Assembly (NCBI GenBank): GCA_947631705.1
Contig: CANRMJ010000008.1
Location: 1-50,611 of the forward strand
Length of the DNA stretch: 50,611 nucleotides
DNA from: an uncultured Clostridia bacterium
GTDB taxonomy: Bacteria > Bacillota > Clostridia > Oscillospirales > Acutalibacteraceae
Reading direction: 5' to 3'
In this document: one piece after another, positions 846 to 21,730 of the stretch
Layout: every line of letters starts with the position of its first letter
Numbering within the stretch: the first letter of the stretch is position 1
Program-made: the position numbers and the translations under genes
The notes under the pieces: model-generated
What the model was told of the DNA's origin: nothing
What the model saw: the letters and a program-made list of their open reading frames with translations, nothing else
Databases searched by the model: none

Positions 846-3800
846 CTAATTAAGCTCGGCGTTCGTAACAATGTTAGAATAAACGGTTTGGCTTATTTTC
901 TTACCGTCAACAACCGTTTCGTAAGTCACATAGGAAACATAAGAGATGTTCTTATTAGAGAATCCTGCATATCCAATTGAAACAGCAAACTGATTTGTGT
1001 TTTTCATTATGCTTGAAACGGGGACGGAAAGATTAAGAATGTTGTTGGCACCGTCTACATCGCCAAGTGTGAGTTGATCGGTTGCGGGCGAGCTGCTGGC
1101 GTCAAGAACAACTCCGGCGCCTACTATAGTTGCACTTGAGCTGGAGGGTTTGGCAAACGAACCCACAAACTGAGCTCTTTGATTAGAAAGAACGGGTTTG
1201 CTTATTACAGATACGTCAAAGTTGCTGTCGCCGTCTGTATCAACATAAGTGTCTATGGTATTTGCCACTATAGGTTTAACATTAAGATTATCGCAAGCAT
1301 AGAACGTATATGAATTTGTGTAGGATAAAATTTTTCCTGTGTTTTTATCAATCAATTGCTGAACTTTGTTGTCATTTGACGGGTCTGCATAATCAACTGT
1401 TGTTAATTGATTGTATTTAACGTCCTGAGAGGCAAACTGATTGTCGTTATCGTGGCGATACGTGATAATTTGGTAATCACCCGTTTTCTCGCTCTCTATC
1501 GGTTTGTAGGTAACGAGAAGGGTTGTATCTTTAGTAAATGTGGGAGTAGCCGACGGATCATAGTGTGTTTCTGTCTTCACTCCGTCTTCCATAACGTAGT
1601 ATTTGTCTATCTGATAGAACATACGCTTTTGAACAGGAGCTTCGGAAAGATTATAATCAGTGCCTTTTTTAACATAAGCATATCCGATAGCGTTTTTAAC
1701 AACAGGGTTGTTGATAAACGTTATTTGGGCGTATTCATCACTTTTACCTGAAACCGAACTTATAAAGAGCTCCGTATTGCCTCTTACATTGAATGTGTAA
1801 GATGTTCCGTTTGTCATCAAATGCTTTTCCTGTTTCAAATCGGTTGTAGCTGCCGTTATCGACGCAAACCATGCGCAGGACTCGCCTGCAACGGGATTTT
1901 CAACAGTCACCTCATCGCCGTAATTGAATTTCTTTGCGTCGGCCACGCTGTTGATATTGCCCTCAACAAGATTGCCGCTTGAGTTGATGTAATACTCTTT
2001 ACCGCTAAGATCCGTAAGGCTTACAGTGTACTGATGATGATTTTCCTTGCTGTTCACGGCAGATTCAATAGCTGTAGTTGCAGCGTCTATTTCCGATTCG
2101 CTCTCATATGCAATAATCGGCTGATTGTTTATTGTGATTGTTTTGGTAATCTGATTATCCTCTTTTGCCGCTTCGGCTTTGATGTTATCAACAATATATG
2201 CGTCCGCGTTAAGGCTTGCTATTCCGTTGAATACTATAAGATAACCATTATAAGCGTCTTCATTAACAAGTTCAATTTCATTTTTGCCTATATTTGCTGC
2301 CAGTTCAAGGAATTCTTTCATTTCGGCAGCAATATCAACCTGCTGTGAGGCAGGAACATTTGCCCTCTGCTCATCAGTCATATTGAGATATTTAAATTTG
2401 TTTTCAGAAGAACCGTTTATACGTTCCTGTAATTTTTCTATAGACTCAATAGTTACTCTGTTTGAACCAATCGCCTCATAAAGACGTTCTCTCGCCTCTT
2501 CATAGCTGATACGTTCTGTTTTATTGCCGCTTTCGGTTCCGTCATTATAATCAATGACCTGTTCGCCGAAGTCAGCTCGATGCGAATTCTTACATTTATC
2601 ATAGGCAGTCCAGAGAGCGTCATATCTGCTTTGCATTTTCTCCGCCACACTGTTCGCGTCCATAGTCCAGTAGTCAAACGCGCTGTCCGCGTCGGCTCTT
2701 GCCGTCGCCAAAGCCTCTACAGAGCTTTTTGTATAATCGGAGCTGTTCGCTATAATTTCATCCGAAAGCTTTACCAAATCGGTAAGCGGAGTTATATCAA
2801 TAACTGTAACGGACTGTTCGTAGGGTGTCTTTTCAAGCAAAATATTTCCGTTTCCACCATCTTTCGAAGGATCGGAATAAAACGCAGCACCGAGAAATTT
2901 GTTTTCAAGCTTATATTCAGTCATAGACGGTTTTGTGGTTTCTTTTAAATTCCTGCTTAAATCGTCAGCGCTCGTTGTATAGCTTGTGCTTGCGGGGATA
3001 TAGGCGCTTAATTTGCCGCGCATTACTGTTGTTACGCCGAAAGCAAGAATTACATTTCTCGCTGTATAACCATTACTATATACATCGGTTATTCCCAAAA
3101 TATTATCCATCTTATCCGTTGATTGAGAAAGCCAACTGTCGCTTAAACCTTCGCCACCTACACACGTGTAGCTCATTGTGTTGCCATTGTCGGTTCCGTT
3201 TCCGCCTGATAATGCATAAATATCCGAAAGCGTAAATTTTGCACCGTTATTCGTTGTGGCAGTCAAATTCCCCTTAGCATTGTCTTTAGCATTTTTGATA
3301 TGAGTATTAAATTCGACACTACTACCCGCATCGCTATAAGATTCAGTCTTCCAATACGATGAAGAATCAAGGTTAAGATTTATCGAATCAAGTCCGTTGT
3401 CGTTGCGCACTCCTGTGTCTTTTACATCTTGGCTTAACGTCATTCTCACATAATCAAGATCTATACATTCAGATGCGCCGGAATTTGTTCTGAATATTAC
3501 ATGGTTGTTTTCTCTTGTGTAAGTAAATTCATGATTTTCAGTTGTGCCGGCTTTGTTTGTAAATTGTGCTTTTACCGTAACCGTGTCTTCCACGCCATTA
3601 TTGTCGCTTATAATTTGACCGTCTGTAATCTTTGTTGTGAACGCAGGTTTAAGGCTGTTGAACGAATCATAAACGCTGAGAACGATTTCTTTATACTTTT
3701 CCACAAGATCCCTTACGTGGAATGCCTTTGTGGGGCTTGTGATTTTTGCGCCGGTTTTAAAGGCTTCGGCATTATTCACGGCAATCTGAACATCATCCGA

Positions 3801-7816: not shown

Positions 7817-7845
7817 ATTATAGGGTATAAGTCTATTCAAGTCAA
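7817..7845 (-). promoter_or_regulatory. Sigma-A promoter of the sugar symporter gene
   Basis: TTGACT (7840-7845) and a perfect TATAAT (7817-7822) are separated by 17 bp on the minus strand. Confidence 0.85.
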
Positions 7846-7880
7846 ATAAATATTATTTTTATTTAAAGAATAATAAAGCC

Positions 7881-9083
7881 TTATTCTTCTATTCCCAAAA
7901 TTTCCTGAGCCTCGTCACCGCCGAGTGTTTCTATTTTACGCAGGTTTTTTTGAATAATGCGGTTCCTGTCTGTCGCGTCGTCAAGGACTTTGCCTGCCTC
8001 CTCAACCTTTTTCTTAGCCTTTAAGAGCAGATCTCCGAATTTATCGTATTGCGCCTTCGCGGCTCCCAGAACTTTCCAAACCTCATTTGCCTTTTTGTTT
8101 ATAGCCATTGTTCTGAATCCCATTGCAAGCGAATTTAAAAGAGCCGTAACGGTGCTTGGTCCCGCAATCATAATGCCCTCCGCCTGTAATTTTTCGGCAA
8201 CGGCATTTTTGCTTGAAGTGATTTCTGCATAGAGCCCCTCCGTTGCAAGATAAAGAATCGCAAACGGGGTTGTTTCGGGAGTGCTTATGTATTGCTTAAC
8301 AAGCTTTGCCTCGTCGCGAACACGCTGTTCAAGAGCCTTTTTTGCTTTTTCAAGCTCCTCAGTGTTTCCCGCGTCCGCCGCGGCGGAAAGCCTTGCGTAA
8401 TCCTCCATAGGGAATTTGGAATCTATCGGAAGATACGTTATTGAGTCGTCCTCCTGATTCGGAATACGAACTGCAAATTCAACCTGCCCGTTGTATTTCG
8501 GATTTGTTTTTACATTAGTGTCATACATTCCGGGTATGGTTTCGTCAAGGATATTTCCAAGCTGAACCTCCGCCCATGTGCCCCTTGCCTTAACATTTGT
8601 GAGCACACGCGTTAACCCCTTAACGTTATCGGTAACTCCCGCGGAAAGATCTTTCATTTCAACAAGTCCCTTATATACATTTTGCAGCTGTTCCGAAACG
8701 GTTTTGAATGAGGCATTTAAGCGCTGATTCAACGTTTCAGTGAGCTTTTCATCAACGGTTTTGCGCATTTCCTCAAGTTTTTTCTCGTTGCTCTCCTGCA
8801 TTAACGCAATAGAGTCATTTATCCGTTTCGTCTGTTTTTCGGCGTTTTCGTTAAGCGACTCGTTTATTTTAATCATCTGCTCGTAATTTTTTTCCGTAAG
8901 AGAGTGCATCTGCTGCGAAACGGCGCGCAGCCCCTCCTCTGTGCGTTTTGCGTTTATATCGGTTTTCTGGTCTAATAGGGCTATGCCGTTATCCTTTTTC
9001 GGCTTGTTCATAATGATAAGCACAATCGCAATCAGCAACAAAACCACAAGCACCGCAAGCATAATCAAAATATAAGTTTCCAT
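7881..9083 (-). CDS. rmuC: RmuC-domain DNA recombination protein
   Basis: This 400-residue protein has one N-terminal membrane anchor (about residues 5-25), a long coiled coil (about 45-130), and the RmuC domain at about 140-350. The RmuC hallmark GTWAEVQLGNILDE sits near residues 168-181 and LPIDSKFPMEDY near 218-229. RmuC proteins are membrane-tethered, nuclease-fold proteins that limit DNA rearrangements at inverted repeats; the biochemical activity remains poorly defined. AGGAGGTGCC before the ATG fixes the start. The gene is transcribed alone from a promoter whose -35 lies in a palindrome. Confidence 0.93.
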   Translation of the reverse strand: METYILIMLAVLVVLLLIAIVLIIMNKPKKDNGIALLDQKTDINAKRTEEGLRAVSQQMHSLTEKNYEQMIKINESLNENAEKQTKRINDSIALMQESNEKKLEEMRKTVDEKLTETLNQRLNASFKTVSEQLQNVYKGLVEMKDLSAGVTDNVKGLTRVLTNVKARGTWAEVQLGNILDETIPGMYDTNVKTNPKYNGQVEFAVRIPNQEDDSITYLPIDSKFPMEDYARLSAAADAGNTEELEKAKKALEQRVRDEAKLVKQYISTPETTPFAILYLATEGLYAEITSSKNAVAEKLQAEGIMIAGPSTVTALLNSLAMGFRTMAINKKANEVWKVLGAAKAQYDKFGDLLLKAKKKVEEAGKVLDDATDRNRIIQKNLRKIETLGGDEAQEILGIEE

Positions 9084-15234: not shown

Positions 15235-18018
15235 TTATCCGCCGTAATTTTCTTTAAGCATATCGCCGTAAATTACGTGCGCAGTCTCGCCTGAATCCTT
15301 ATAGATAAGATACGGACGAGCGCAAGCCGGTGACTTGTCGCTTACACCGTAGGTGAGCGCGAACTGTCCGTCTGCCGCCTTGTTACTGTTTGTAATCTGC
15401 TTAACTGTTGCCGACTGGTTTCCGGAAGTCAGACCAACATTGTCAAGAACAAGATCGCTTTCATTCATATCCTTACCGTATACAAAGCCCGATTCAACAA
15501 GCGTGTATCCCTCGGGAACCGAACGTGTCGCAAGGAACTTAACGGCTACGCCCGAATTATCCCATGTTTCGCTTACGGAAGCAACTGTGGGAGCGGCGGC
15601 TTCTGCCGATGTTTCATAAGTTACAGTGATATCCGAACCGCAAAGGAACGTGTATGATGTGCCGTAGGAAACAGTCTTGCCGTTTACTTTCCAAACTGCG
15701 GCAGTGTCGCTTACAGGTGTAACAGTAATCGTGTCGTTATACTTAGCTGTTGCAGTATTCTGAACGGCTCCGGCACCGTTTACGGTGATATTGCAGTTTT
15801 CCGCACTTACTGTGAATGACTTTGAATCGTCTACTTCATATGTGCCGTAAACTACAAGTGATTCGTTAAGCTCATTCTTGATGTATTCGTATGTTGCGCT
15901 CCAGCCTACAAATTTCATTCCCGCATACTGATTGGGCTCGGGAAGAGCATTGAATTCTCCGCCCTTAATCTGCTCGCTTGAATAGATCGCAACAACGTTT
16001 CCGTACATATCAACAAATGTTACATGGAAGGTTTCTTCGTTTACTTCCTCAAATACAGGCTGATATGTTGCGTCTGAATAAGCATATGTTGTGTAAGTTG
16101 TTTCCGTTGTTACAAGCTTTCCGTTTGAATACCAGCCAACAAACTCGGCGCCTTCAAAAGGATGAGCTGTGAGCGTGTAGCTTTCGCCATACGCTAAATT
16201 TTTGGTTTCCGTCTGTTTTCCATAGCTGCTGATAACAACACCGTTGATCGCCATTGATCCGAGATTTGTTGCAAGCACGGTTATTCCGATTTCCGCAACA
16301 AAGGGGTTTCCGTGTTTATCGGCATATGCCTTTGCGGTTGAATCTCTGTAGCCGTAAATCGTTACGGTTTTCGGAATTGTGTTATTATCATCATCTATAT
16401 TACATTCGGGATTCAGTATTTCTACCTTTTTCAATGATTTGCAATATAGAAATGCCTGGTTTCCTATAGTTTTTACACTGGCAGGTACAGAAACCTCTTC
16501 CAAGTAAGTTTTTCCGTTATATTGACCGGCAAAAGCTCCGCCTGCTATGCTTAATGCACCGTCATAAACATCATATGTTGTTCTGGTGTTTCCCAAAGGA
16601 TACTGAATAAGCTGCGTTTTGTCTTTATTATACAAAGCTCCCAGCGATGCTGCATAGTGTTGATTTTCCGGCGCTATAACAAAGCCCTGCAATTGCATGC
16701 AGTTGCTGAACGCGTAAGCGCCTATAGTCTCAACGCTTTCAGGTATTGTTACCTTTGACAGCCATTTGGAGGCGTAAAACGCATAAGGCTCAATTTTTGT
16801 TACGGTTGACGGAATCGTATACGCCGTAGCTGACGCATCTGTACGAGGCGTTACAAGATTCATGGGATACTGAATAAGTATTGTCTTATTCTTATCAAAC
16901 AATATGCCGTTTTGTGATGAATAGTTTTTGTTTCCTTCGGCAACCGTGATGCTTGCCAAATTAAAGCAGCCGTCAAATGCGCCTAAACCTATCTTTTCAA
17001 CGCTTTCGGGAATAGTAACATGGGTGAATCTACTCATTGAAAACGCATAGGCTTTAATGCTCGTTACTGTGTTTCCGGCAATTGTTGACGGGATTTCAAC
17101 AGTATCAGCGGAGCCCGTGTATCCCGTGATTTCAACTTTGCCGTCGCCAAGTACGCTATATTGAAAATCGCTTGATTGGTCTATTGCAACAAAGGATCTG
17201 TGAAATTTCTCAGCATAATCCTGTGCCGAAGAGCCGCTATAACCGTGTATAACAGTTGTTTCGGGAATTGCTTTCTCATCATCGCCTAAAACAACGTTAT
17301 AACACAATATTGTGATATCGGTTAACGAAGTGCAGCCTTCAAATGCTCCGCCGCCGATAATATACATCGTTTCGGGCAATGTTATGCTCTTCAATGTTTT
17401 ATTGTTTTTGAAAACATCGCCGTTGAGAGCCACAACCGTTTTTCCGCCAAGCGTTGAGGGAACTTCAATTGTATCTTCTTTGCCGTTATATCCGGTGATA
17501 TAAACATCTTCGTTACTGCTGTAACGGGCGTATTCCCAAACCTCGGCAGGAGACTCCGGAGCTGAGATTTCAGCAAAAGTTCTTTGAAACTTTTCGGCAT
17601 AATCCTGCGCTGTTGAGTCCGCATAACCGTGTATAACCGTGGTTTTTGGTATCAGATTTTCATATTCTTCCAAAACCGCGCTGGGATTCAATATCGTTAT
17701 ATCGGTTAACGAAGTGCATCCGTCAAATGCCCCGCTGCCGATAATATACATCGTTTCGGGCAATGTTATGCTCTTCAATGTTTTATTGTTTTTGAAAACA
17801 TCACCGCTGAGAGCCGCAACTGTTTTTCCGCCAAGCGTTGATGGAATATCAATATCAGTTTGCAAGCCTTTATACCCGGTAATGTAAACATCATCGTTGC
17901 TGCTGAAACGGGTGTATTCCCAATCGCCTTCCGTATCTGCGTAAGCAGAAAAATTAAGCCCGGCGGTTAAACTTAAAAGCATCACAACGGATAATAAAAT
18001 ACTTATTACTTTTTTCAT
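15235..18018 (-). CDS. Large secreted BspA-type leucine-rich repeat protein
   Basis: This 927-residue protein has a signal peptide (about 1-27). Two nearly identical 128-residue units follow (33-160 and 161-288), each holding a LRR_5 segment and ending in a cap such as STAQDYAEKF. A longer run of LRR_5 repeats occupies about 290-570. About 585-650 and 655-725 hold beta-repeat modules of the Listeria-Bacteroides (Flg_new/InlB) type with FVGW motifs. The C terminus (about 810-927) is an Ig-like domain with ESGFVYGK and a final Y-x-x-Y strand, of the same type as in the 1630-residue protein. BspA proteins bind host or microbial surfaces. No cell-wall sorting signal is visible. GGAGGT fixes the start. 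The leader is long and carries a poly-G tract. Confidence 0.88.
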   Translation of the reverse strand: MKKVISILLSVVMLLSLTAGLNFSAYADTEGDWEYTRFSSNDDVYITGYKGLQTDIDIPSTLGGKTVAALSGDVFKNNKTLKSITLPETMYIIGSGAFDGCTSLTDITILNPSAVLEEYENLIPKTTVIHGYADSTAQDYAEKFQRTFAEISAPESPAEVWEYARYSSNEDVYITGYNGKEDTIEVPSTLGGKTVVALNGDVFKNNKTLKSITLPETMYIIGGGAFEGCTSLTDITILCYNVVLGDDEKAIPETTVIHGYSGSSAQDYAEKFHRSFVAIDQSSDFQYSVLGDGKVEITGYTGSADTVEIPSTIAGNTVTSIKAYAFSMSRFTHVTIPESVEKIGLGAFDGCFNLASITVAEGNKNYSSQNGILFDKNKTILIQYPMNLVTPRTDASATAYTIPSTVTKIEPYAFYASKWLSKVTIPESVETIGAYAFSNCMQLQGFVIAPENQHYAASLGALYNKDKTQLIQYPLGNTRTTYDVYDGALSIAGGAFAGQYNGKTYLEEVSVPASVKTIGNQAFLYCKSLKKVEILNPECNIDDDNNTIPKTVTIYGYRDSTAKAYADKHGNPFVAEIGITVLATNLGSMAINGVVISSYGKQTETKNLAYGESYTLTAHPFEGAEFVGWYSNGKLVTTETTYTTYAYSDATYQPVFEEVNEETFHVTFVDMYGNVVAIYSSEQIKGGEFNALPEPNQYAGMKFVGWSATYEYIKNELNESLVVYGTYEVDDSKSFTVSAENCNITVNGAGAVQNTATAKYNDTITVTPVSDTAAVWKVNGKTVSYGTSYTFLCGSDITVTYETSAEAAAPTVASVSETWDNSGVAVKFLATRSVPEGYTLVESGFVYGKDMNESDLVLDNVGLTSGNQSATVKQITNSNKAADGQFALTYGVSDKSPACARPYLIYKDSGETAHVIYGDMLKENYGG
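17182..17922 (-). repeat. Tandem near-identical 384-bp units inside the BspA gene
   Basis: Unit 1 (17566-17922) and unit 2 (17182-17538) encode 119-residue blocks that match through long stretches, for example PSTLGGKTV, DVFKNNKTLKSITLPETMYI and CTSLTDITIL. They are joined by a nine-residue linker. Recombination between them could change repeat number. Confidence 0.9.
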
Positions 18019-19379: not shown

Positions 19380-20102
19380 TTATAAAACTTTTGAAAGAAA
19401 ATCGCGCAGCCGTTCATTTTTAGGATTAGTGAAGAACTCATTAGGCTCGTTTTCTTCTTGTATATATCCGCCGTCCATAAACACAACCCTTGAGCCGACC
19501 TCACGCGCAAATCCCATTTCGTGCGTCACCACAACCATAGTCATTCCGTTATCTGCAAGATCTTTCATAACCTGAAGCACCTCGCCCACCATTTCGGGGT
19601 CAAGTGCCGAGGTGGGTTCGTCAAAAAGCATTACCTTAGGATTCATCGCAAGCGAGCGGACTATAGCAGCTCTCTGCTTTTGACCTCCCGAAAGCGAGCT
19701 TGGATAAGCGTCTGCCTTGTCCTCAAGCCCAACCGTTTTTAAAAGGCGCAACGCATTTTCGTTTGCTTCTTCCTTGCTCATAATTTTTAGCTTTACTGGC
19801 GCAAGCGTTATATTTTTCATAATTGTGAGGTTATTGAACAAATTGAAATGCTGAAAAACCATTCCCATATGCTTGCGAACCTCATTGATATCGGTTTTTT
19901 TATCGGTTATAAGCTGACCGTCAAACCAAATTTCGCCCTCTGTGGGAGTTTCCAAAAGATTAAGACAGCGCAGAAAAGTTGATTTGCCTGAGCCGGACGG
20001 ACCGATTATAACGATTTTATCGCCTTTGTTTATTTCATAATCAATTCCCTTCAGAACGTGATTATCATTAAAGCTTTTCTTTAAATTACAAACTTTTATC
20101 AC
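19380..20102 (-). CDS. Polar amino-acid ABC transporter, ATP-binding protein
   Basis: This 240-residue ATPase powers an amino-acid importer of the GlnQ/HisP/ArtP type. All ABC motifs are intact: Walker [10 protein letters not shown] (34-42), Q-loop FQHFNLF (83-89), signature LSGGQKQR (137-144), Walker B with [10 protein letters not shown] (161-170), and the switch His in VVTHEMGF (near 192). The GTG start lies inside the last codons of the permease gene (17-bp overlap), so the two are translationally coupled. It is the last gene of the operon and ends at the terminator at 19265-19318. Confidence 0.95.
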
Positions 20103-20796
20103 TTTTTCTCAGGCTCCTTTCCATAACTTTGATAAGCAGTGTGATAATAACCACCATAACGATATAAATAAGAGCCATTACAAGATACGGCACCATAAAT
20201 TCATAGCTGTTGCTGCCTATATAATTGAACGCGACATACAAATCCATAGCCCCTACAAAGCTAACTACCGAAGTTTCCTTAATAAGAGCAATAAATTCGT
20301 TGCCAAGCGTTGGCAAAATGTTTTTAACAGCTTGAGGAATTACAATTTTCATCATTGTGGTTCCATAGCTTAATCCAACAGAGCGCCCGCCTTCCATCTG
20401 ACCGGGATCAACCGAAAGTATACCTCCGCGCATAATTTCGGAAATATAAGCGCCGCTGTTAAGCCCGAAAACGCAAACCGCAACCGATACCGAAGTCATT
20501 TTCAGCCCGAGTATCGGCAGCATTACATAATAAAACAAAAGCAGCTGCACAACTATCGGCGTTCCTCTGAAGAAACCCACATAAAGGCTGCAAAGTGAAT
20601 TTAAAAATCCTGTTATGCCGCCTTTTTTCGGCAGCACGCGTATTGTTGCGATAACAGTTCCTATCAATATACCTATTATAAGCCCCGCAACCGCAATGAC
20701 AACCGTATTTTTCAAGCCGGTCAAAACGTTTCTGTATCCGCCGTTATTAAAAAATACATTTATAAAAGTTTCTATTTTTTTATCAAAATTTCCCAT
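20086..20796 (-). CDS. Polar amino-acid ABC transporter, permease
   Basis: This 236-residue inner-membrane permease belongs to the HisM/GlnP family. It has about five membrane segments and the EAA coupling loop near residues 130-160 ([22 protein letters not shown]), which docks onto the ATPase. The early R-G-T-P motif ([11 protein letters not shown], near 94-104) is typical of the family. Only one permease gene is present, so it probably works as a homodimer. It lies 79 bp after the binding-protein gene, with a hairpin terminator between them, and overlaps the ATPase gene. Confidence 0.94.
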
Positions 20797-20875: not shown

Positions 20876-21730
20876 TTATGCCACGTTGTTGATAGCCTCT
20901 GTTATGCAGTCGGCAGGCGCCGAATCTATAATCACGTAGCTGAGGTTTCCGTTAACAAGATCTTGAACGGCAAGAGAACCGTTTCTGTAAACCGTGCAGG
21001 TTGCGGGAAGTCCGTCAAAGCCCCAATCAGCATCGCCTTCAACGAAGAACTGACCTGTTGTGCCTCCCTGAACTCCGATTTTCGTGTTGCTGTCTTTTTC
21101 TTTAAGAATTGCAACAACGTCATCTGCCGTTTTGCAGGAATCAAATTCGGTGCTGTCTCCGGGAACAATAATCTTTTGCGCGGCGGAATAATAAGAATCG
21201 GAGAAAGTAACATATTCCATTCTCTCTTCATTAACAGTCAGCCCCGCCATGGCAATATCGCTCTTGTGCTGACCTACGGAAAGACAAACCGAATCAAAAT
21301 CCATATTCTGGATAACAAGCTCTTTGCCGAGTTTCTGAGCAAGAAGAGACGCAATTTCCATATCTATTCCGAGATACTGATCGCCGCTTGTGTACTCAAA
21401 CGGCTCAAACGCCGCGTTTGTTGCAACAAGGAGCTGATCCTTAGAAGTGTCAAGCGCTGCCGATGTTACGGGAGTGGGCGTGCCGTCTCCGAAATACTTG
21501 TTGCAGATTTCTTCAAACGTGCCGTTTGCTTTGATTTCCGCAATGAAATCATTAACAGAGGCAAGAAGCTCTGTCTGCTCCTTATCTACTCCGAAAGCAT
21601 AGTCTTCAGATGTAAGGTCAATGTCTATAACCTTAACCTTTGCATCAGACGCACCGCCCGAGCAAGCAGCAAAAGAGGCAACGATTGCAACGCAGATAAG
21701 AACTGCAAGCACTTTTGTAATCTTTTTCAT
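20876..21730 (-). CDS. Amino-acid ABC transporter binding lipoprotein, circularly permuted
   Basis: This 284-residue lipoprotein (signal peptide with lipobox FAAC, Cys23) is a family 3 substrate-binding protein, but its segments are in unusual order. Residues 39-81 (LTSEDYAFGV ... EIKANGTFEEICNKYFG) are what normally forms the last strand and C-terminal helix of the family. A short linker follows. Residues 98-118 (DQLLVATNAAFEPFEY) are the normal mature N terminus, and the rest of lobe 1 and lobe 2 follow. The protein stops at YVIIDSAPADCITEAINNVA, where usual members continue into the segment placed here at the front. This looks like a natural circular permutation. GIDMEIASLLAQKLG and the DIAMAGLT motif support an amino-acid ligand. 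It has its own strong promoter. Confidence 0.92.
   Translation of the reverse strand: MKKITKVLAVLICVAIVASFAACSGGASDAKVKVIDIDLTSEDYAFGVDKEQTELLASVNDFIAEIKANGTFEEICNKYFGDGTPTPVTSAALDTSKDQLLVATNAAFEPFEYTSGDQYLGIDMEIASLLAQKLGKELVIQNMDFDSVCLSVGQHKSDIAMAGLTVNEERMEYVTFSDSYYSAAQKIIVPGDSTEFDSCKTADDVVAILKEKDSNTKIGVQGGTTGQFFVEGDADWGFDGLPATCTVYRNGSLAVQDLVNGNLSYVIIDSAPADCITEAINNVA

Follow-up and report, generated by a model that had tools for sequence, protein, structure and literature searches.

A circularly permuted family 3 solute-binding lipoprotein in Clostridia, with a segment order that appears to have arisen more than once

Is the amino-acid-type binding protein encoded on contig CANRMJ010000008.1, from an uncultured Clostridia bacterium of the Acutalibacteraceae, a natural circular permutation and, if so, is its segment order peculiar to this genome? 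The whole stretch analysed, hereafter the window, is 50,611 nucleotides long and carries on its minus strand an open reading frame (ORF) for a lipoprotein of solute-binding protein family 3, whose members usually have the segment order N-M-C: N is lobe 1 from the normal start of the mature protein as far as hinge 1, M is the remainder of lobe 2, and C comprises the last lobe-2 strand, hinge 2, a lobe-1 strand and two helices. The window protein has the order C-N-M, so that the end of M is the new C terminus. With high confidence, we interpret it as a permuted binding protein, anchored by lipid and serving an amino-acid-type ATP-binding cassette (ABC) importer, with the old ends linked and the chain reopened in a lobe-2 loop before the hinge-2 strand. 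The gene and its parts are as follows.

20876..21730, minus strand: circularly permuted family 3 amino-acid-type solute-binding lipoprotein, 284 amino acids, order C-N-M (ORF, Pfam, phmmer, piece profiles)
21662..21730, minus strand: signal peptide to lipobox Cys23, residues 1-23 (sequence; C23 invariant in 17/17)
21638..21661, minus strand: short tether, residues 24-31 (sequence; model confidence, pLDDT, mostly low)
21485..21637, minus strand: relocated C-terminal segment, residues 32-82 (out-of-order profile matches, piece profiles)
21440..21484, minus strand: linker between the old ends, residues 83-97 (conserved in the alignment of 17, ordered in the model)
21161..21439, minus strand: N segment, residues 98-190, with Arg170 (phmmer, piece profiles)
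20879..21160, minus strand: M segment, residues 191-284, with Thr225 and Asp269 (phmmer, piece profiles)

SBP_bac_3 (PF00497) matches the window protein in two stretches (106.8 bits; gathering score 26.4) and, together with Lig_chan-Glu_bd, is one of only two Pfam families found at E <= 0.001; at that threshold it matches all 17 sequences of alignment A1, the window protein included. With phmmer, residues 99-273 align with positions 11-171 of the AncQR chain (4zv1; 70.0 bits, independent E-value (i-E) 2e-18) and residues 29-82 with positions 180-233 (22.9 bits, i-E 5e-4), and with a 17-sequence profile the second of these pieces, residues 27-83 against the AncQR C terminus, reaches 35.6 bits (i-E 5e-8). 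By piece profiles, the chain has a single piece of each kind, arranged C-N-M. The stop codon is 79 bp from the permease gene, which leaves no room for a missing 50-residue end. The original prediction, made from the letters alone, had proposed an apparent circular permutation, with profile alignment as a check; the two SBP_bac_3 stretches, the out-of-order AncQR matches and the piece order bear this out. Cys23, residues 39-81 and the linker at 82-97 are as it had read them, residues 39-81 do fall in the usual last segment of the family, and the N segment begins where it had placed the usual mature N terminus, near residue 98. Its interpretation is nevertheless supported only in part: the permutation and the joined ends stand, but the proposed reopening in the hinge-proximal part of lobe 1 does not, as the cut lies on the lobe-2 side, ahead of the strand leading into hinge 2.

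Structure prediction, also proposed as a check, gives a confident two-lobed fold (AlphaFold2, pLDDT 88.9), in which the relocated segment contributes strands at 32-35 and 42-49 and helices at 53-68 and 71-80. Foldseek and VIA leave this segment mostly unmatched, but both align in sequence order and this is no evidence by itself. Arg170, Thr225 and Asp269 align with their AncQR counterparts and are invariant in 17/17; we take residues at these positions to be those that hold the amino acid backbone. From the segment order, the usual connectivity would be reversed, with an unbroken lobe 1 inserted into lobe 2, and the lipid anchor would be on lobe 2 instead of lobe 1. By analogy with normal family members, the window protein presumably binds and delivers its substrate as they do. 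The same genome also encodes a normal-order, cystine-like family 3 protein (L002). Among solved structures (the best 60 of 118 chains for A1 and the best 60 of 413 for A2), no single-domain chain is collinear over the whole permuted sequence.

Collinear homologues, each matched over most or the whole of its length, are present in 17 of 60 related genomes: the source genome, 13 of the 36 others of its genus and three that belong to other families of the order. Identity to the window protein is 50-77% for the 16 outside the source genome. In 19 of the 36 congeneric genomes the best match is instead of the normal-order kind, within residues 82-280, and the 12 of these read as ORFs are all N-M-C by piece profiles; the remaining four have no match or a weak one. 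Both kinds at E <= 1e-10 occur together in none of the 36 (Fisher p 1e-6, which is only a guide since the species are related). The permeases of the permuted kind and of the five normal loci compared are just 43-46% identical, and the two kinds therefore look like alternative transporters within the genus, not alleles.

The original prediction had suggested that a similar order may exist in other gut Clostridia, and the order was indeed found in other Clostridia. From a GTDB genome scan that yielded 469 relatives, the best 80 were kept as named Clostridia loci, with labels that include Blautia, Dorea, Roseburia, Butyrivibrio, Acetatifactor, Agathobacter and Ruminococcus, and each has one C-N-M ORF. 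In a scan of 391 genomes of the class, at least 36, the source genome included, have a near-full-length permuted match at E < 1e-50, and the 35 others, read as ORFs, are all C-N-M. Among 398 genomes drawn from the phylum, at least two matched the permuted profile at E <= 1e-48 (the source genome and one of the same class) and at least three matched the profile of a second, hinge-type permutation, described below, at E <= 1e-58, one of them from another class (G524). These class and phylum counts are lower bounds, as at most six candidates were scored per genome, with strict cut-offs.

Two other explanations of the order can be weighed against these data. Residues 39-81 might be an unrelated N-terminal domain, with a normal C-terminal segment elsewhere in the chain; no evidence in favour of this was found, and the match of residues 27-83 to the AncQR C terminus (i-E 5e-8) and the single C piece in the chain refute it, leaving it next to no probability. 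An assembly chimera or a frameshift could also mimic a permutation, and the window is indeed one contig of a 129-contig assembly. However, each of the 109 loci L049-L157 has one C-N-M ORF, the linker is conserved and, as 16 other genomes have collinear homologues and three genomes in one contig (G249, G278, G404) carry the permuted gene, an assembly slip is very unlikely and this explanation too was rejected as refuted in practice.

For a phylogeny, 204 sequences were rotated to normal order, and a tree was built of 110 (49 C-N-M, 47 N-M-C and 14 M-C-N). The C-N-M order requires four changes on this tree, a number forced by its starred branches and stable over the 5-95% bootstrap range. The window clade is the first group, with 39 rows (98/76), 38 of which join at 99/99; the second, L075-L077 with L158-L160, adjoins the normal L178 (100/98); the third, L161-L163, is nested among normal proteins from a single genus (100/99 with L191); and the fourth is L033, which belongs to a divergent branch of cystine-like proteins (100/93 with L002 and L111). 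A single origin of all C-N-M rows is rejected (log-likelihood lower by 272.6; approximately unbiased test, p 1.2e-41), as is one origin for groups 2 and 3 (p 5e-5). The termini agree across the four groups: each chain stops shortly after the last lobe-2 helix, and each starts at the same strand. The C-N-M order thus appears, from these sequences, to have arisen in several separate changes within family 3. The solved relatives whose alignments were inspected (4zv1, 6h30, 6svf) have the normal order. The permuted binding protein at L033:1975-2826 shares its genome, G057, with a group 1 member.

One of these changes is recent enough to be visible in the DNA. L191 (normal, G143) and L162 and L163 (permuted, G116 and G256) are from one genus and one locus, flanked by the same kind of upstream gene and the same kind of downstream membrane-protein gene. 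In a blastn comparison of L191 with L162, the upstream region and signal peptide (61-1100 to 506-1547, 67%), the C segment (1676-1824 to 1550-1698, 81%), the N and M segments (1136-1665 to 1751-2265, 83%) and the downstream region (1867-1931 to 2309-2372 and 2258-2801 to 2747-3290, 83% each) all align, with the 149-bp C segment in L162 behind the signal peptide and no remaining match at the 3' end. The leader that precedes the first strand in L191, FTTVESGKL, corresponds to FTTVEEGKL inside the new linker of L163. Among the normal rows, L191 is nearest to both the N and the C piece of L163 (90% and 69%), and therefore one gene was rearranged, rather than two unlike genes fused. In group 2, the N piece is nearest to L178 (83%) and the C piece to L032 (73%), then L178 (68%). 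The two pieces likewise have different nearest normal rows in groups 1 and 4, as expected of short, old segments. Judged by these sequence affinities, descent of both halves from one parent gene is clear for the recent event only. In the short stretches read, L161-L163 and L191 have no permease or ATPase beside them.

In the window, the cognate transporter genes lie downstream of the binding-protein gene on the same strand, overlapping each other by 17 bp.

20086..20796, minus strand: cognate permease, 236 amino acids, BPD_transp_1 (Pfam, NCBIfam)
19380..20102, minus strand: cognate ATPase, 240 amino acids, ABC_tran, GlnQ-like but below the GlnQ cut-off (Pfam, NCBIfam)

The permease and ATPase expected in the operon of a polar amino acid uptake transporter (PAAT) are thus both present. 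Transporter pairing in homologues of the same order, another check that had been proposed, gave a uniform result: a permease and an ATPase are downstream in all 77 named loci with at least 1,600 bases there, the other three of the 80 being too short. In two of the 77 (L088, L154) the permease was not scored by the script because its longest ORF starts within the binding-protein gene, two (L111, L112, from one organism) have an extra binding-permease fusion and ATPase farther on, and one has an additional permease match upstream. Arg170, Thr225 and Asp269, with this operon, support a putative ordinary amino-acid importer. At Rfam gathering scores, no substrate-naming riboswitch was found near the operons in the window and 10 loci; the only matches are a tRNA in L086 and, in L122, a cobalamin riboswitch that lies outside the operon (7834-8009, beyond its end). 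Downstream of the transporter in the window, an ORF of 927 amino acids (15235-18018, minus strand) has a signal-peptide-like start and repeats that, by eye, resemble leucine-rich surface repeats.

A second cut site was found in relatives. Piece profiles give the order M-C-N, which the window protein does not have, for L034 and L165-L177. L034:2064-2951, L165-L173 and L177 are family 3 binding lipoproteins cut at hinge 1, with lobe 2 first and lobe 1 last, and, by this order, only one interlobe chain crossing continues on both sides. On the tree, the hinge-1 permutation probably had two or more origins (p 0.003). L174:958-2457, L175:1208-2740 and L176:1163-2746 encode a hinge-permuted binding domain and a permease in one chain, and these fusions are not a single clade in the 110-sequence tree. 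L035:1561-3804 and L036:620-4291 (747 and 1223 amino acids) are tandem arrays of family 3 domains that run into a permease, in permuted phase, with lobe 2 and the C piece first and the N piece last.

How the C-N-M order arose, and whether it matters, are separate issues. Duplication and fusion are the usual route to circular permutation and the probable one here: the gene would have been duplicated and fused in frame, after which the first copy lost its lobes and the second its C-terminal segment. Alternatively, the ~150-bp 3' segment might have moved in one step to a place behind the signal peptide, without duplication, fusion and trimming, which fits the junction in L162, where the segment starts at 1550, the signal-peptide block ends at 1547 and no 3' copy was matched; tandem family 3 fusions do, however, exist in the order (L035, L036), and we regard such a move as rather unlikely, although the recent event is compatible with both routes. 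The permutation might also be neutral, tolerated since the fold closes on itself and without effect on transport. The ordinary operon layout, and permuted and normal orthologues at the same locus in one genus, are in keeping with neutrality, to which we give close to an even chance. That the same cut was reached in four changes, and that another cut by its order also places the anchor on lobe 2, hints rather at selection or a strong structural bias. The tether between the lipobox Cys and the first strand is also shorter in permuted rows, with a median of 9 in C-N-M (n=126) and 18 in normal proteins (n=44), although these rows share ancestry and certain tree pairs differ little; six C-N-M and three normal rows without a recognised lipobox were excluded, and values for the hinge type are unreliable as the profile start is extrapolated. 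We suggest, tentatively, that permutation has recurred by convergence (four origins at the lobe-2 loop, two or more at hinge 1) because an anchor on lobe 2 and a continuous lobe 1 improve opening, closing or docking on the permease. Several points weigh against the overall account of a permuted amino-acid binding protein with repeated origins: the best NCBIfam match, the GlnH equivalog (NF007029), scores 107.5 against a cut-off of 303 and was rejected; no intermediate in the form of a fused duplicate came to light for the lobe-2 cut; the tree is unrooted, so that gains and reversals are inseparable; the bootstrap had yet to converge; and the tree has long rows, L033 and L074 included.

The window protein resembles SBP_bac_3 proteins (GlnH/HisJ type, AncQR, the T. 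maritima arginine-binding protein) in sequence family, predicted two-lobed fold, aligned Arg, Thr and Asp and ABC operon, and its normal family 3 relatives here in having a lipoprotein anchor; it differs in order and, as this order implies, in its continuous lobe 1, split lobe 2 and lobe-2 anchor. The tandem substrate-binding domains of GlnPQ (6h30), a chain that is collinear across its domain junction with window residues 43-205, are two complete domains, whereas the window protein is one permuted domain. Natural permutation of an anchored ABC binding protein is described for TpMglB-2 (Tp0684) of Treponema, a glucose-binding lipoprotein classed as type Ic / cluster Bc, which also has relatives among Gram-positive bacteria of the gut (PMC4990184). 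That protein has a cluster B sugar-binding fold in which the three strands that normally open the N-lobe have been moved to the C terminus, whereas in the window protein the C-terminal segment is moved frontward, and Pfam gives no match that would place the window protein in type Ic / cluster Bc. Brautigam et al. suggested that the TpMglB-2 permutation may be an adaptation to anchoring, an idea that our data, by analogy, would fit (PMC4990184). Glycine-betaine binders such as 2b4l (OpuAC) were reported as a permutation family with CPSARST (PMC2395249); we infer that OpuAC has a hinge-type permutation, with lobe 2 first and lobe 1 last, and the text of the OpuA paper (PMC2861598) has no word starting with 'permut'. 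Imelysin-like proteins of Bacteroidales, as here, show a natural permutation of recent date and have close relatives of normal order (45% identity), but have an unrelated, all-helical fold, and multiple origins are not mentioned in the portion of that paper at hand (PMC3143127). Permuted ABC binding proteins are thus already known in cluster B and among glycine-betaine binders, and the family 3 case appears to be new: the literature searched, which covered few subscription journals and some sources in part, yielded no description of a natural permutation in a family 3 amino-acid binding protein.

Natural circular permutations are in many cases ancient and known from a single event, DNA methyltransferases and imelysins being exceptions in one respect or other. 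What is surprising here is recurrence at one loop together with a recent event: one family appears to have undergone four changes to the same new termini and, at a second site, probably two more, and one event is young enough for the permuted and normal orthologues to have flanking DNA in common. With repeated and recent events, a direct test becomes possible of selection for permutation, and of anchor position in ABC importers. As the SBP_bac_3 label is silent on segment order, permuted forms may go unnoticed in gut genomes.
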